DNA of 38,749 bases, from positions 1 to 38,749 of the IMG/VR virus record IMGVR_UViG_3300048583_000081; one strand, 5' to 3'. Below, in pieces: positions 28,931-38,749 of this stretch. Position 1 is the first letter of the stretch, and each line of letters starts with the position of its first letter. The position numbers and the translations under genes are program-made. The notes under the pieces are model-generated. The model saw only the letters and a list, made by a program, of their open reading frames with translations, was not told the origin of the DNA and ran no database searches. The DNA comes from a virus.

Positions 28931-29080
28931 ATGACCGAGCCACTGCCAGAGGACTTTGGTCCCGAGGACATCGTCGAAGTCCCCGACGAGCAGATCCTCA
29001 ACGAGGACGGCACGCCACTCGACCCGAACGAGCACGACGTCGAAGACGGTGCCGGCGATGAGGTGGCTCTCGATGGGTGA
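28931..29080 (+). CDS. Small acidic protein upstream of endolysin
   Basis: This 49-residue frame starts with ATG, with GAGGAG just upstream. It is strongly acidic (MTEPLPEDFGPEDIVEVPDE), with 17 Asp/Glu and no hydrophobic segment. It lies between nozzle and endolysin and overlaps the endolysin start by 8 bases. The good ribosome site and tight packing support it. No function can be given. Confidence 0.65.
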   Translation: MTEPLPEDFGPEDIVEVPDEQILNEDGTPLDPNEHDVEDGAGDEVALDG

Positions 29081-29969
29081 GATCAAGAAGAACCCGTACA
29101 TCGCGGAGTGGCTCAGGGCCAAGGGCCTGAAGGTGGTCGAGTACCCCGGCTGGGAGGAGCGGTCGCGCCCCGCATCCACCGGGTCGTTCAACCCGCAGGG
29201 CATCATGATCCACCACGATGCGTCCCCCAAGGGCCCCTCGCCGGCTCTGCCGCGCTACTGCGCCGAGGTGGGCAGTCCCACCAACCCGCCACCCGTCTGT
29301 CACCTGTGGGTCGCCTACGACGGCACGTGGCACGTTCTGGCCGCGGGGCGTGCCAACCATGCCGGACTCGGGGGCGGGGCTGACGCGGCCCCCAGCGCCC
29401 GCTGGATCCCCCGCAACAGTGGCAACGCCTACACCTACGGTATCGAGGTCGATCACACCACGGGTGAGATCTGGCCGCGGGCGCAGTACGAATCCCTGGT
29501 GAAGGGCGTGGCGGCCCTCGTCCAGCTGATGGGGCAAGGCTCGGCCGAACGGGTGACCTCCCACAAGGAGTACGCTCCAGGCCGGAAGATCGATCCGCAC
29601 GGCATCAACATGGACGTGTTCCGCTCCCAGGTACAGCGGGCGCTCACCCCTGCATCCAAGCCGAAGCCGCCGGTCAAGCCGAAGCCCAAGCCGAAGCCGT
29701 TGCCGGTGGTCAACCTGCGGAACGTGCAGCCTGGGAAGACCAACAGCGATGTCACCGTGCTGCAGAAGGCGCTGATGAAGGCGGGCTACGACATCCCGCT
29801 CCTGCGCTCGGGCAGGGCCGAGTACGGCTACTTCGGGGCGCAGACCAAGCACGCCTACGCCCTCTGGCAGCGCAAGCTGGGCTTCAGGGGTAAAGATGCT
29901 GACGGTCGACCGGGACTTCAGTCCTTGACTCGACTAGGCCGAAAGACCGGGTTCAAGGCTGCACGCTGA
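29073..29969 (+). CDS. Endolysin: N-acetylmuramoyl-L-alanine amidase with C-terminal wall-binding domain
   Basis: This 298-residue protein cuts the bond between muramic acid and the peptide stem. The Amidase_2 fold spans residues about 20-195. GIMIHHDAS carries the first zinc His, YGIEVDHT lies in the central strand, and TSHKEYAPGRKIDPHGINMD carries the second His, the Lys/Arg pocket and the Asp ligand. A basic Pro-Lys linker (residues about 195-215) leads to a peptidoglycan-binding repeat with VLQKALMKAGYD and FGAQTKHAYALWQRKLGF. No signal peptide is present, so it needs the holin. The ATG at 29073 is chosen because AGGTGG precedes it by six bases. Confidence 0.9.
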   Translation: MGEIKKNPYIAEWLRAKGLKVVEYPGWEERSRPASTGSFNPQGIMIHHDASPKGPSPALPRYCAEVGSPTNPPPVCHLWVAYDGTWHVLAAGRANHAGLGGGADAAPSARWIPRNSGNAYTYGIEVDHTTGEIWPRAQYESLVKGVAALVQLMGQGSAERVTSHKEYAPGRKIDPHGINMDVFRSQVQRALTPASKPKPPVKPKPKPKPLPVVNLRNVQPGKTNSDVTVLQKALMKAGYDIPLLRSGRAEYGYFGAQTKHAYALWQRKLGFRGKDADGRPGLQSLTRLGRKTGFKAAR

Positions 29970-29992
29970 GTTTGTGACACTTGTGACACCCC

Positions 29993-30015
29993 TGTGACAC
30001 CTGCGGGGTGTCACA
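29993..30015. repeat. 23-bp palindrome TGTGACAC-N7-GTGTCACA, copy 1
   Basis: TGTGACAC (29993-30000), seven bases, then GTGTCACA (30008-30015). As RNA it would form a 9-bp hairpin with a 5-base loop just after the endolysin gene, so it might also help end late transcription. The same design with the same N7 spacing recurs at 30190-30212. Confidence 0.75.
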
Positions 30016-30093
30016 ACACTTCCGCCCCAGTACTGGGCAAGAAGGGCTGAAACAGCGTGTGACACTTGTGACACCCCTTTTTCAAAACTTCTA

Positions 30094-30124
30094 TTGAGAA
30101 GGAGGAAGAAGGGGTGGATATAAA
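30094..30124 (+). promoter_or_regulatory. Candidate promoter in the loop of the heptamer array
   Basis: TTGAGA (30094-30099) and TATAAA (30119-30124) are each 5 of 6 to sigma-70/sigmaA consensus hexamers, 19 bases apart, which is slightly long. It is the only A/T-rich spot in this gap and faces the 30337-35504 operon. Flanking heptamers on both sides could serve as repressor or activator sites. Confidence 0.45.
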
Positions 30125-30189
30125 GAGTACGCGTTTTGAGGTGTCACAAGTGTCACAACCCGTTTTGCCCAGTGTGGGCCCGGAATTCT

Positions 30190-30212
30190 TGTGACACTTG
30201 GCAGGTGTCACA
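30190..30212. repeat. 23-bp palindrome TGTGACAC-N7-GTGTCACA, copy 2
   Basis: TGTGACAC (30190-30197), seven bases, then GTGTCACA (30205-30212). The spacing is the same as in the copy at 29993-30015, its mirror partner in the array. Two matched inverted pairs suggest dimer-binding sites for a protein that also binds the direct repeats. Confidence 0.75.
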
Positions 30213-30276
30213 AGGTGTCACAAGGTGTCACAGCGACACGCCCAACCTGGCTGCATGCGCGACGGGTGTACATCTC

Positions 30277-30310
30277 TTCAATCCGGGTGCTAGTCTCCGC
30301 CTGGATTGAA
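30277..30310. repeat. Inverted repeat before the 30337 gene
   Basis: TTCAATCC (30277-30284) and GGATTGAA (30303-30310) are perfect 8-base arms around 18 bases, within the leader of the downstream operon. The AAGGA ribosome site (30324-30328) lies just after it. It may be an operator or a leader hairpin, and chance is possible. Confidence 0.4.
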
Positions 30311-30336
30311 CCCGCCACCCACCTAAGGACCTGCGG

Positions 30337-31170
30337 ATGAATCAGAACACCGAACGCTCCATCATCTGGAAGGCGCTCAAGGCCGCCGGGTGGAAGCCCG
30401 AGGAGGGGCGCGGGTACATCAAGTATCCGCTCGCCGACCTCCACGCTGAACTGGAGCGATTCCAGAACGCGACCGGACAGGTGCTCGAGATCGAGGTGCC
30501 GAGCGACGTCGACGACGTGCAGCCCACTCCGTCCGAGCCGATCCCTGCCGAGGTGGACGGGCTCGACCCCGACAGCCTCTTCGCCCACCCGCAGCTCGGG
30601 CCGCCGCCGGCCCAGCCGGTCCCGACTCCGCCGGTGCAGCTGCCGCCAACGGAACCGCTGCGGCAGAACCGCCCGAACCCGGACGAACTGCCCGGCCAGC
30701 GCACGCTCAACGAGGACGCGGAGGTCATCCGCATCGACGACGCCGGGCGCATGTGGTACCAGGAGGAGGTGCGCAAGCCTGCGTACGCCAAGCCCCGTGG
30801 CCGCCGCATCCTCCGCTACGTCGAGAAGGGTGTGCAGACCGAGACCGTCAAGGCCGGTGAGTACGTCGAGTCCTTCGAGGTCGAGGGCCAAGGCCCCGGC
30901 AAGGCGGCCGAAATCAAGATCACGCTGCCCTCCTACCAGGTCGGGATCTACAAGGACCCGCGCTTCCCGTTCAAGATCCACTGCTACGGCGGCTCAGAGG
31001 CGTTCGACCTGGCCGACGTCGAGCAGTACTACGGCGGAGTCGAGCTGGTACCCAGCACGATCAAGCGGGTCTACATCGAGAACGACCTCTGCTACGACAT
31101 CCGGTCTGTGATCCAGACGATCCAGGCTGAGTTCCGCCAGCTGCAGCTCACCGGAAGGATCGGTTCATGA
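30337..31170 (+). CDS. Unknown protein with Pro-rich middle
   Basis: This 277-residue protein is the first gene after the heptamer array and starts with ATG after AAGGA. Residues 1-45 are a small helical/beta domain (SIIWKALKAAGWKPEEGRGY) that looks DNA- or protein-binding. Residues 55-125 are Pro/Asp-rich and disordered. Residues 130-275 form a folded beta domain with ITLPSYQVGIYKDPRFPFKI and a C-terminal helix (IRSVIQTIQAEFRQLQ). It is coupled to the next gene by ATGA. A gene in the packaging half that may act at the array is one idea, but I do not recognise a family. Confidence 0.6.
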   Translation: MNQNTERSIIWKALKAAGWKPEEGRGYIKYPLADLHAELERFQNATGQVLEIEVPSDVDDVQPTPSEPIPAEVDGLDPDSLFAHPQLGPPPAQPVPTPPVQLPPTEPLRQNRPNPDELPGQRTLNEDAEVIRIDDAGRMWYQEEVRKPAYAKPRGRRILRYVEKGVQTETVKAGEYVESFEVEGQGPGKAAEIKITLPSYQVGIYKDPRFPFKIHCYGGSEAFDLADVEQYYGGVELVPSTIKRVYIENDLCYDIRSVIQTIQAEFRQLQLTGRIGS

Positions 31171-34934: not shown

Positions 34935-35224
34935 TGGCACATGTGACCATTCAGCAGGCGCTGCAGAACGTCGTCGACAACCCCGAGTTCGGGACGGACG
35001 ATCTGCTTGCACTGCCGGCGCATGAGCTCATTTGCCGCACGCTGTTCGACATCGCCAACAACGCAGCACTGGCGGACCGCAAGTCGATGGCTGCAGCCAA
35101 CACCGCACGCACGCTGATCTTCCAGCGGCTGGTCGGCAAGCGCCGTGCCGGCTCGCACCCCGCCACACGGACACGCCAGCAGCTGGTGTTCAAGGACTTG
35201 GAGGGTTCCGACGATGGCGAGTGA
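34934..35224 (+). CDS. Unknown small helical protein
   Basis: This 96-residue protein is all helix-prone after a short start: VTIQQALQNVVDNPEF, LPAHELICRTLFDIANNA, and MAAANTARTLIFQRLVGKRR, then a basic stretch ending QLVFKDLEG. Together with the next gene of equal length it sits where a small terminase could be expected. The basic segment could contact DNA. It is coupled at both ends by TGATG and by overlap. Function is unproven. Confidence 0.55.
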   Translation: MAHVTIQQALQNVVDNPEFGTDDLLALPAHELICRTLFDIANNAALADRKSMAAANTARTLIFQRLVGKRRAGSHPATRTRQQLVFKDLEGSDDGE

Positions 35225-35504
35225 ACTGGTTGCCACCAACCGACGCTGGCGACGTGAGGTTCCCGAGAAGCACCGAGCCAGCCTGGACACTCGTGTCGTG
35301 TGGCTGTGGAACCAACGCTTCGGCGTGGTGCAGACCGTCTACAACGATAGCCCCGACGTCCTTGACAAGACGGCGGCCACGCTCATCCTGCAGGCGATCA
35401 TGGCTCGAGACCTGGTCTCCATTCGACAGGTGTTTCAGCGGCTCGAGGGTGGATCACAGTTCGATGATGAGGTCATTGAGGCGCAGCAGTCGCTCCGGAT
35501 TTGA
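35214..35504 (+). CDS. Small helical protein, possible small terminase-like
   Basis: This 96-residue protein starts at the ATG at 35214 with GGAGGG upstream. The C-terminal helix pair TAATLILQAIMARDLVSIRQ followed by VFQRLEGG resembles the end of small terminase-like proteins (xAIxRALxGDxxAIxxIxxRIxGxP). The first half has a basic WRREVPEKHR segment. It is the last rightward gene and its 3' end overlaps the 3' end of the leftward operon by 32 bases, so no terminator fits between. If it is a small terminase, it would recognise the packaging site; this is inference only. Confidence 0.55.
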   Translation: MASELVATNRRWRREVPEKHRASLDTRVVWLWNQRFGVVQTVYNDSPDVLDKTAATLILQAIMARDLVSIRQVFQRLEGGSQFDDEVIEAQQSLRI

Positions 35505-37555: not shown

Positions 37556-38416
37556 TCACACCCCGTAGTTCTCGATGTTCGACACCAGCTTGTCCGCTTC
37601 GTCCGAGCTCAGGCCGACCTCGATCGCACGAGCATGGACCGTGTCCTGCCAGTTCTCGATCTCAGCGGTCTTCATCTGCGAGCCGAGAGCGAACAGCGTG
37701 TTGTTGCGACGGCCCGCCGGGATCGGCTTCTTCAGGTCGTCGAGCAGAGCTTCCTTCATCATCAGAACCTCGTGGTCCTCTCCAGTCAGGAGTGTCGTGG
37801 TGATCTCAGCAGTCCGGGCTTGGATCTTCTGAGTTGACTGCTTGAGCCGCCGAGCAAGGTGCTCCGGCAGCATGGCGATGGGATGCCCATTCCACCGCTG
37901 TGTTGGGTAGTGGTACACGCAGCCAGTGCCGCGGATGTCCACACCCTGCTCGATTCCGATCCGGTCGCTGTAGCCACCGAATCCGAGCTCGTCATCCCAG
38001 ACGTCATCTGGGGTCACGTAGAACAGGTGGTATCCGTCGCCACTCTTGCTGGTCTCAGCCAGCGTGTGTGGGAACGGACTGAGTCGAACAGCGTGCTCGA
38101 GCCCACCGTTCTTCCCATCGATGTCGATGCACACGAGCCGCATCGACCTCATGATGAACGCGAAGTTCCATGCTCCACGTTCGTAACCTACGAGCGTGCG
38201 CTTCGGTGCGAAGCGTTCACCTTTGTACTGCTCCATGAACGTGGGGTCGTCAGGCTTCTTTGCCTGCAGGCCCCACCCCTTGTCCGTCTTGCCGTCATCC
38301 CAGGAGCGGACGATGGCCACGCCGTGCGGTCCCGCCAGAGGCAGGAACGAATCCGGGATCGGTGTGTCGATGGTGTAGTTCGGGTTATCCCTCCACCACA
38401 CGTACGGTTGCTGCAT
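37556..38416 (-). CDS. PrimPol-like primase-polymerase
   Basis: This 286-residue protein starts at the ATG at 38416, with GAGGAAGTGG upstream. It contains the archaeo-eukaryotic primase / PrimPol signatures in order: CIDIDGKNGG with the metal-binding Asp98 and Asp100, GDGYHLFY with His130, and GVDIRGTGCVYHYP with the third Asp160. Residues 30-90 form the preceding beta/alpha unit. The C-terminal 70 residues are helical. Such proteins make primers for DNA replication. The gene overlaps the helicase-like fragment by 32 bases. The primase being separate from the helicase, and downstream of it, is not the usual fusion order. Confidence 0.8.
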   Translation of the reverse strand: MQQPYVWWRDNPNYTIDTPIPDSFLPLAGPHGVAIVRSWDDGKTDKGWGLQAKKPDDPTFMEQYKGERFAPKRTLVGYERGAWNFAFIMRSMRLVCIDIDGKNGGLEHAVRLSPFPHTLAETSKSGDGYHLFYVTPDDVWDDELGFGGYSDRIGIEQGVDIRGTGCVYHYPTQRWNGHPIAMLPEHLARRLKQSTQKIQARTAEITTTLLTGEDHEVLMMKEALLDDLKKPIPAGRRNNTLFALGSQMKTAEIENWQDTVHARAIEVGLSSDEADKLVSNIENYGV

Positions 38417-38749
38417 CTGAAACCACTTCCTCGATGTTGTCTGGCGTACGCCAGTTGTCCAGGAACGCGAGAGCATCGCGCTTGAAACCAGTGATGGTGT
38501 ACACACCTTTGTACCCGACGCCTGAAGGATCACGCTTGGTCGTGCGCTTCCAGTCAACGATGTCGTTGAAGAGACGCTTGACCGCCATGTCCTCCCACAC
38601 GCTCAGATCGTTCTGCTTCAGACGCCAGCTGCAGAACTGCTGGTACAGATCGTTGAGCTCGACGCCGATCAGATTGTCGGCACCGTGCGGGTCTGCGTTC
38701 TCCATGTGCATGACGTACTGGAGGGCAATGCTGTTGGTGTGCATGTGCT
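38385..38749 (-). CDS. C-terminal part of a helicase/primase-like protein (cut by window edge)
   Basis: The frame is open to the window end at 38749, so only the C-terminal 120 or so residues are seen. They read GVELNDLYQQFCSWRLKQND, then KRLFNDIVDWKRTTKRDPSG and YKGVYTITGFKRDALAFLDN, a pattern seen at the ends of D5-type SF3 helicases in phages (winged-helix-like domain). It would lie just upstream of the primase in the same leftward operon. The helicase core itself is outside the window, so the assignment is tentative. Confidence 0.55.
   Translation of the reverse strand, partial: HMHTNSIALQYVMHMENADPHGADNLIGVELNDLYQQFCSWRLKQNDLSVWEDMAVKRLFNDIVDWKRTTKRDPSGVGYKGVYTITGFKRDALAFLDNWRTPDNIEEVVSDAATVRVVEG

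Follow-up and report, generated by a model that had tools for sequence, protein, structure and literature searches.

A mirror-symmetric heptamer array, a probable replication origin, in a phage related to Burrovirus and the Eekayvirinae

The stretch of DNA analysed here (the window) is a virus contig of 38,749 nucleotides, IMG/VR record IMGVR_UViG_3300048583_000081, and represents part of a phage related to the Microbacterium phages of Burrovirus and the Eekayvirinae. Its terminase shares 69% identity with that of phage Araxxi, and the gene order of the two agrees. The contig begins at a giant gene, just past the junction of early and late genes, and ends within the gene for the helicase gp3; with its ends at these points, the contig leaves out the junction itself and most of the early genes. 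A full set of structural genes, with portal and terminase, is encoded. Between an endolysin gene and a homologue of Araxxi gp43 lies a gene gap of 367 bp (29970–30336) that holds an array of repeated heptamers. We examined the layout of this array, its recurrence in relatives and its covariation with gp3, and consider that it is probably an origin of phage replication.

Twelve exact copies of TGTGACA span positions 29973–30232, in an order of orientations (+++-++--+---) that is its own reverse complement, about a dyad centre at 30102.5. All 12 heptamers extend to a common octamer, GTGTCACA. Outside the array the contig contains only three further copies of TGTGACA, the chance expectation for the whole contig being 6.7, and among 2000 order-2 Markov sequences with the array's own composition the maximum for any heptamer was eight copies. 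Centres fall at 30102.0–30102.5 for the four outer mirror pairs and at 30107.5 for the two inner ones; the mirror is therefore exact in the outer pairs and 5 bp off in the inner ones. Symmetry extends to the DNA between the heptamers, as arms of 65 nt (29990–30054 and 30151–30215) are 75% complementary and the 9-mer ACTGGGCAA (30032–30040) mirrors TTGCCCAGT (30165–30173) about the same centre as the array, 30102.5. An earlier note on this DNA, made from the letters alone, had claimed twelve exact heptamers, a self-complementary order, four outer pairs agreeing to one base and homology of the arms between the heptamers, and the counts given here confirm this description. The parts of the gap are as follows.

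29973–30015, no strand assigned: left outer module, with heptamers at 29973 (+), 29982 (+), 29993 (+) and 30009 (-)
30016–30057, no strand assigned: left linker, with the 12-bp palindrome CCCAGTACTGGG at 30026–30037 and, at 30032–30040, the mirror of the right-linker word
30058–30073, plus strand: left inner iteron pair, heptamers at 30058 and 30067, spacing 9 bp
30074–30141, no strand assigned: AT-rich core of 68 bp, the proposed melting site, with a GC content of 0.40 against 0.63 for the contig
30142–30157, minus strand: right inner iteron pair, heptamers at 30142 and 30151, spacing 9 bp
30158–30189, no strand assigned: right linker, containing TTGCCCAGT
30190–30232, no strand assigned: right outer module, with heptamers at 30190 (+), 30206 (-), 30216 (-) and 30226 (-)
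30233–30336, plus strand: leader of the gp43-like gene, in which TGCTAGTCT (30288–30296) was picked out by eye as a possible extended -10 element

Every other 60-mer of the contig has a higher GC content than positions 30078–30137 (36.7%), which lie within the core. The possible -10 element lies about 55 bp to the right of the array, and similar sequences were seen by eye at the same place in relatives. A promoter search found no consensus sigma-70 promoter, and searches for Rfam families, tRNAs and terminators gave no match. The array region has no DNA similarity to known phages, and a search of virus contigs for the pattern TGTGACAC-N7-GTGTCACA matched nine further contigs, which were set aside.

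The element recurs across this phage group with other heptamers (words) in place of TGTGACA, and no report of it there was found in the literature searched; a published survey of Burrovirus/Eekayvirinae-like phages makes no mention of such an array. Most of the uncultured relatives found through gene 30337 carry an array of the same build in the same place (the late place), written in GTAGACA, GTAGTCA or CTAGTCA, and one relative, L020, has none there. A terminase-anchored search yielded 80 loci, and the 35 of these with at least 4.5 kb upstream were scored by an automatic rule requiring five or more words at the late place. Arrays were called in 28 of these 35 uncultured relatives; among the 28, the call for L358 was made on another repeat, but this relative does carry a GTAGACA array, and three of the seven uncalled relatives (L329, L334 and L039) carry a shorter form. 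Five long relatives (G001–G004 and G010) have two arrays each, both written in the same word within a genome, and their second array sits in the junction where the leftward genes meet the giant gene. Cultured relatives have the junction array in every case examined (9/9), in words that include GGTAACG, CGGTTAC, GTAACCA, GAACCGC and TCGTTAC, and no array was found in the gp43 gap of the seven whose gap was read. The unit that relatives share is two iterons either side of an AT-rich core, while outer modules may be present on one side, both sides or neither, the window having the bilateral form. In relatives the design is kept while every copy is changed to another word, which supports the earlier proposal of a specific DNA-binding protein and a maintained symmetry.

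Two other features were seen near junction arrays. Between the array and the giant gene, Araxxi (L004 4495–4560), Burro and Mazun (with L005 and L006) have a second conserved AT-rich block, which includes TATATACATATATATAGGGGGGTATA. A small hairpin, CCCATGCGAGACATGGG, is repeated several times in the linkers of Eekayvirinae junction arrays (L006 1930–2260, L318, L319 and L320).

Covariation between word and helicase was analysed in the 23 relatives having both an array and gp3, with words divided into a GTC class (GTAGTCA, GCAGTCA, CTAGTCA and CCTGGTC) and a GTAGACA class. At one position in the wing of gp3, all 13 phages with GTC words have Arg, as does one of ten with GTAGACA (Fisher p 1.2e-5, a level that no permutation out of 300 reached when all columns were considered). 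The eight control proteins (terminase, gp43 and six others) gave values of 0.17–0.97 and did not track the word. A first test on 17 phages had been only suggestive, with one control protein nearly as good, and the 23-phage set settled the question. The lone GTAGACA phage with a wing Arg, G011 (L042 and L058), has mixed words (18 GTAGACA and four GTAGTCA), which is perhaps a switch in progress. Four phages (L364, L351, L373 and L396) that joined the set once the rule had been recognised all fit, and on the terminase tree the word class has changed at least seven times and does not cluster. This covariation supports iteron binding by gp3. Two candidate binders put forward in the earlier note find no support here, as the product of 30337–31170 is conserved in phages without an array there and does not track the word, and the product of 35214–35504, which matches Araxxi gp50, does not track it either.

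Pfam assigns Araxxi gp3 to the DUF5906 helicases and detects a Prim-Pol domain in Araxxi gp2. A profile of the gp3 family had one match in the PDB, the 'DNA primase' 7ola/7om0 (E 1.4e-8), which we take to be the primase-helicase of a Staphylococcus aureus pathogenicity island (SaPI). The last 120 residues of gp3 from the window are modelled as a winged helix (predicted local distance difference test score, pLDDT, 81.8), and the model of full-length gp3 (pLDDT 65.6) has a poorly predicted helicase region. Fold searches that used the winged-helix model yielded middling matches only, to ORC1/Cdc6, PadR and MarR domains; P4 alpha was not among the matches listed, which excludes nothing. Overall, gp3 is the likely binder of the array, through its predicted C-terminal winged helix. 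Its stop lies at 38385 on the minus strand, with another gene block between it and the end of the array at 30232. The genes that matter to the argument are these.

30337–31170, plus strand: homologue of Araxxi gp43, assigned by homology, neighbour of the array and judged a non-binder
37574–38359, minus strand: homologue of Araxxi gp2, Prim-Pol primase/polymerase, 52% identity (coordinates are match limits, not gene ends)
38388–38747, minus strand: C-terminal part (120 residues) of helicase gp3, whose gene leaves the contig; a predicted winged helix and the proposed iteron-binding domain

Scans of virus contigs for the words turned up numerous arrays in phages unrelated to this group. In 16 such loci the array has a primase-helicase gene no more than about 220 bp away; in 13 of them, by coordinates, the array is at the 3' end of that gene, and in some it overlaps this end. 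Such array loci include two with Prim-Pol and DUF3987 (L041 and L057) and three with Prim-Pol, D5_N and DUF5906 (L183, L168 and L230); most other array loci yielded no primase-helicase gene in a narrow search on partly short contigs. By Pfam, 17 of 57 proteins near arrays are DUF5906 helicases as compared to three of 57 near single word matches, a comparison that we prefer to a phmmer tally of loci because the control of the latter was spoiled (14 of its 15 control matches are one prophage family). The gp3 profile matched the rep proteins of L226 and L183 weakly and those of L178 and L041 not at all. L178, L226 and L231, three unrelated contigs whose arrays use TGTGACA as in the window, have the build of inner pairs, core and outer modules found in the window.

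Other repeats met in these scans differ in setting. GTAGTCA arrays in five virus contigs from outside the EK group (L083, L104, L113, L116 and L119) occur with a DNA polymerase A-like match and no primase-helicase was detected there; they may represent the origins of a different type of phage. Genomes of Anaerolineales, mostly from one bin (L272, L273, L277, L292, L295 and L308), contain long tandem runs of TGTAGACA in one direction, unlike the phage arrays.

Around the array itself, the endolysin gene (28956–29969, with Amidase_2 and peptidoglycan binding) separates a gp41-like gene from the array in the window; in the relatives read, the array comes directly after the gp41-like gene. The gp43-like protein has a short conserved N-terminus, a variable middle and a conserved C-terminal domain. 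Were the giant open reading frame a virion RNA polymerase, N4-like promoters would be suggested; it has no family match, and no such polymerase is reported in the literature either.

We interpret the array as a phage replication origin that is bound by the gp3 helicase and opened at its AT-rich core, and put the probability of this at about 0.78. The C-terminal winged helix of gp3, a superfamily-3 (D5-like) helicase, would bind two opposed iteron sets, consisting of the inner pairs (30058–30073 and 30142–30157) together with the outer modules, so that two gp3 hexamers load head to head either side of the core and melt it. The Prim-Pol protein gp2 would then prime, and replication would start in both directions; in the long relatives, both arrays may be used. 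Binding, loading, melting and a bidirectional start are proposed by analogy with the SaPIs, simian virus 40 (SV40), the Cch2 helicase of the staphylococcal cassette chromosome mec (SCCmec) and P4 alpha (PMC6092414, PMC9894130, PMC7581432, PMC4234260). The earlier note had listed origin, switch and packaging site as functions; an origin is the one favoured here, and packaging finds no backing in the terminase, which does not track the word.

Several observations weigh against an origin. Some 8 kb separate the array from gp3, whereas in SaPIs the origin lies 3' of the helicase gene. The late copy stands ahead of the packaging genes and, as L020 and the cultured phages whose gap was read lack it, is not essential for the group. 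Independent pairs in the covariation analysis agree with the rule in four to five of five cases and never oppose it, which is too few for formal significance, and the word and wing of the window are without a second example among relatives, the rule having been drawn from GTC and GTAGACA phages only. Finally, GC skew was of no help in placing an origin.

The late array could instead be a cis element that is bound by the same helicase and contains no start site, acting as a helper of an origin at the junction in the manner of crr, the second repeat region of satellite phage P4. We regard this as unlikely; two arrays per genome sharing one word, and cultured relatives with a junction array only, are consistent with a helper, but the late copy comes with complete inner pairs and an AT-rich core of its own, and its form in the window is fully bilateral. 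Still less probable is an operator or enhancer, through which a phage regulator would control the operon from gene 30337 to the terminase and, via the second copy, the early genes. While the late copy does immediately precede a gene whose leader may contain a promoter, and the junction copy between divergent gene blocks, a regulatory site fits poorly with arrays positioned 3' of the primase-helicase gene in 13 unrelated loci, some overlapping its end, with a word that tracks the helicase and none of the other proteins tested, with an orientation of modules relative to the operon that varies (the early array of G001 versus G004) and with the failure to find a consensus promoter. A packaging (pac) or recombination site is very improbable, for although the terminase gene lies about 3 kb downstream and phages of this group package by headful (PMC7302621), long genomes have two copies far apart and not one terminase-tied site, the late place is empty in cultured relatives, the word is not tracked by the terminase, a 68-bp core far exceeds the length of a strand-exchange core, and no recombinase was present among the proteins scanned in a scan that was not exhaustive.

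A broader and doubtful extension of the origin interpretation is that this lytic lineage has two origins per genome for a self-loading helicase, at the junction and before the packaging genes, that the iterons of both switch word together with the wing residue of the initiator, repeatedly, and that the late origin couples copying to expression of the packaging genes. Repeated joint switching of iteron word and wing residue would amount to a natural recognition code between initiator and origin. If the array is an origin, a function is also given to a large unannotated gap in every cultured cluster EK/Burrovirus-like phage examined, and this origin layout extends to a lytic podovirus group and to unrelated phage contigs.

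Comparison with known systems places the array near several of these without making it identical to any, and the earlier statement that no phage element of this design had been described was not borne out. SaPI origins are said to mirror that of SV40, with opposed repeats directing two head-to-head hexamers (PMC9894130). As in the origins of SaPIs and phage-inducible chromosomal islands (PICIs), the initiator here would be a primase-helicase of related type whose DNA-binding domain is C-terminal, as judged by homology, the match to PDB 7ola and the model. Unlike in those origins, primase and helicase are separate proteins, genomes often have two arrays, and the bilateral outer modules have linker dyads. 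Position 3' of the initiator gene and an island context were both tested: the window's array is not immediately 3' of the initiator gene, a position found in the unrelated L041 and L183, and the group consists of full-size lytic phages rather than satellites or chromosomal islands, so the array is not classed as a PICI origin. P4 has two separate repeat regions, ori and crr, and needs both to replicate; the long relatives have two arrays per genome. In P4 alpha, a TOPRIM primase is fused to the helicase, whose winged-helix domain binds the origin repeats (PMC4234260); Araxxi differs in having a separate Prim-Pol gp2 and DUF5906 gp3 and no TOPRIM fusion. The gp3 of the window resembles P4 alpha in the winged helix predicted at its C-terminus, with fold matches of middling Z. 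The isolated C-terminal domain of SCCmec Cch2, a related D5-type helicase, binds direct repeats (PMC7581432), as proposed for gp3, although the putative SCCmec origin has three iterons only and adjoins the helicase gene. The SV40 core origin shares with the proposed arrangement its opposed repeats beside AT-rich DNA and two head-to-head superfamily-3 hexamers, while the repeat word and DNA-binding fold of T antigen are different and its origin-binding domain is N-terminal (PMC7581432). Judged by these analogies, the array most likely works like a SaPI/PICI, P4 or SV40 origin.
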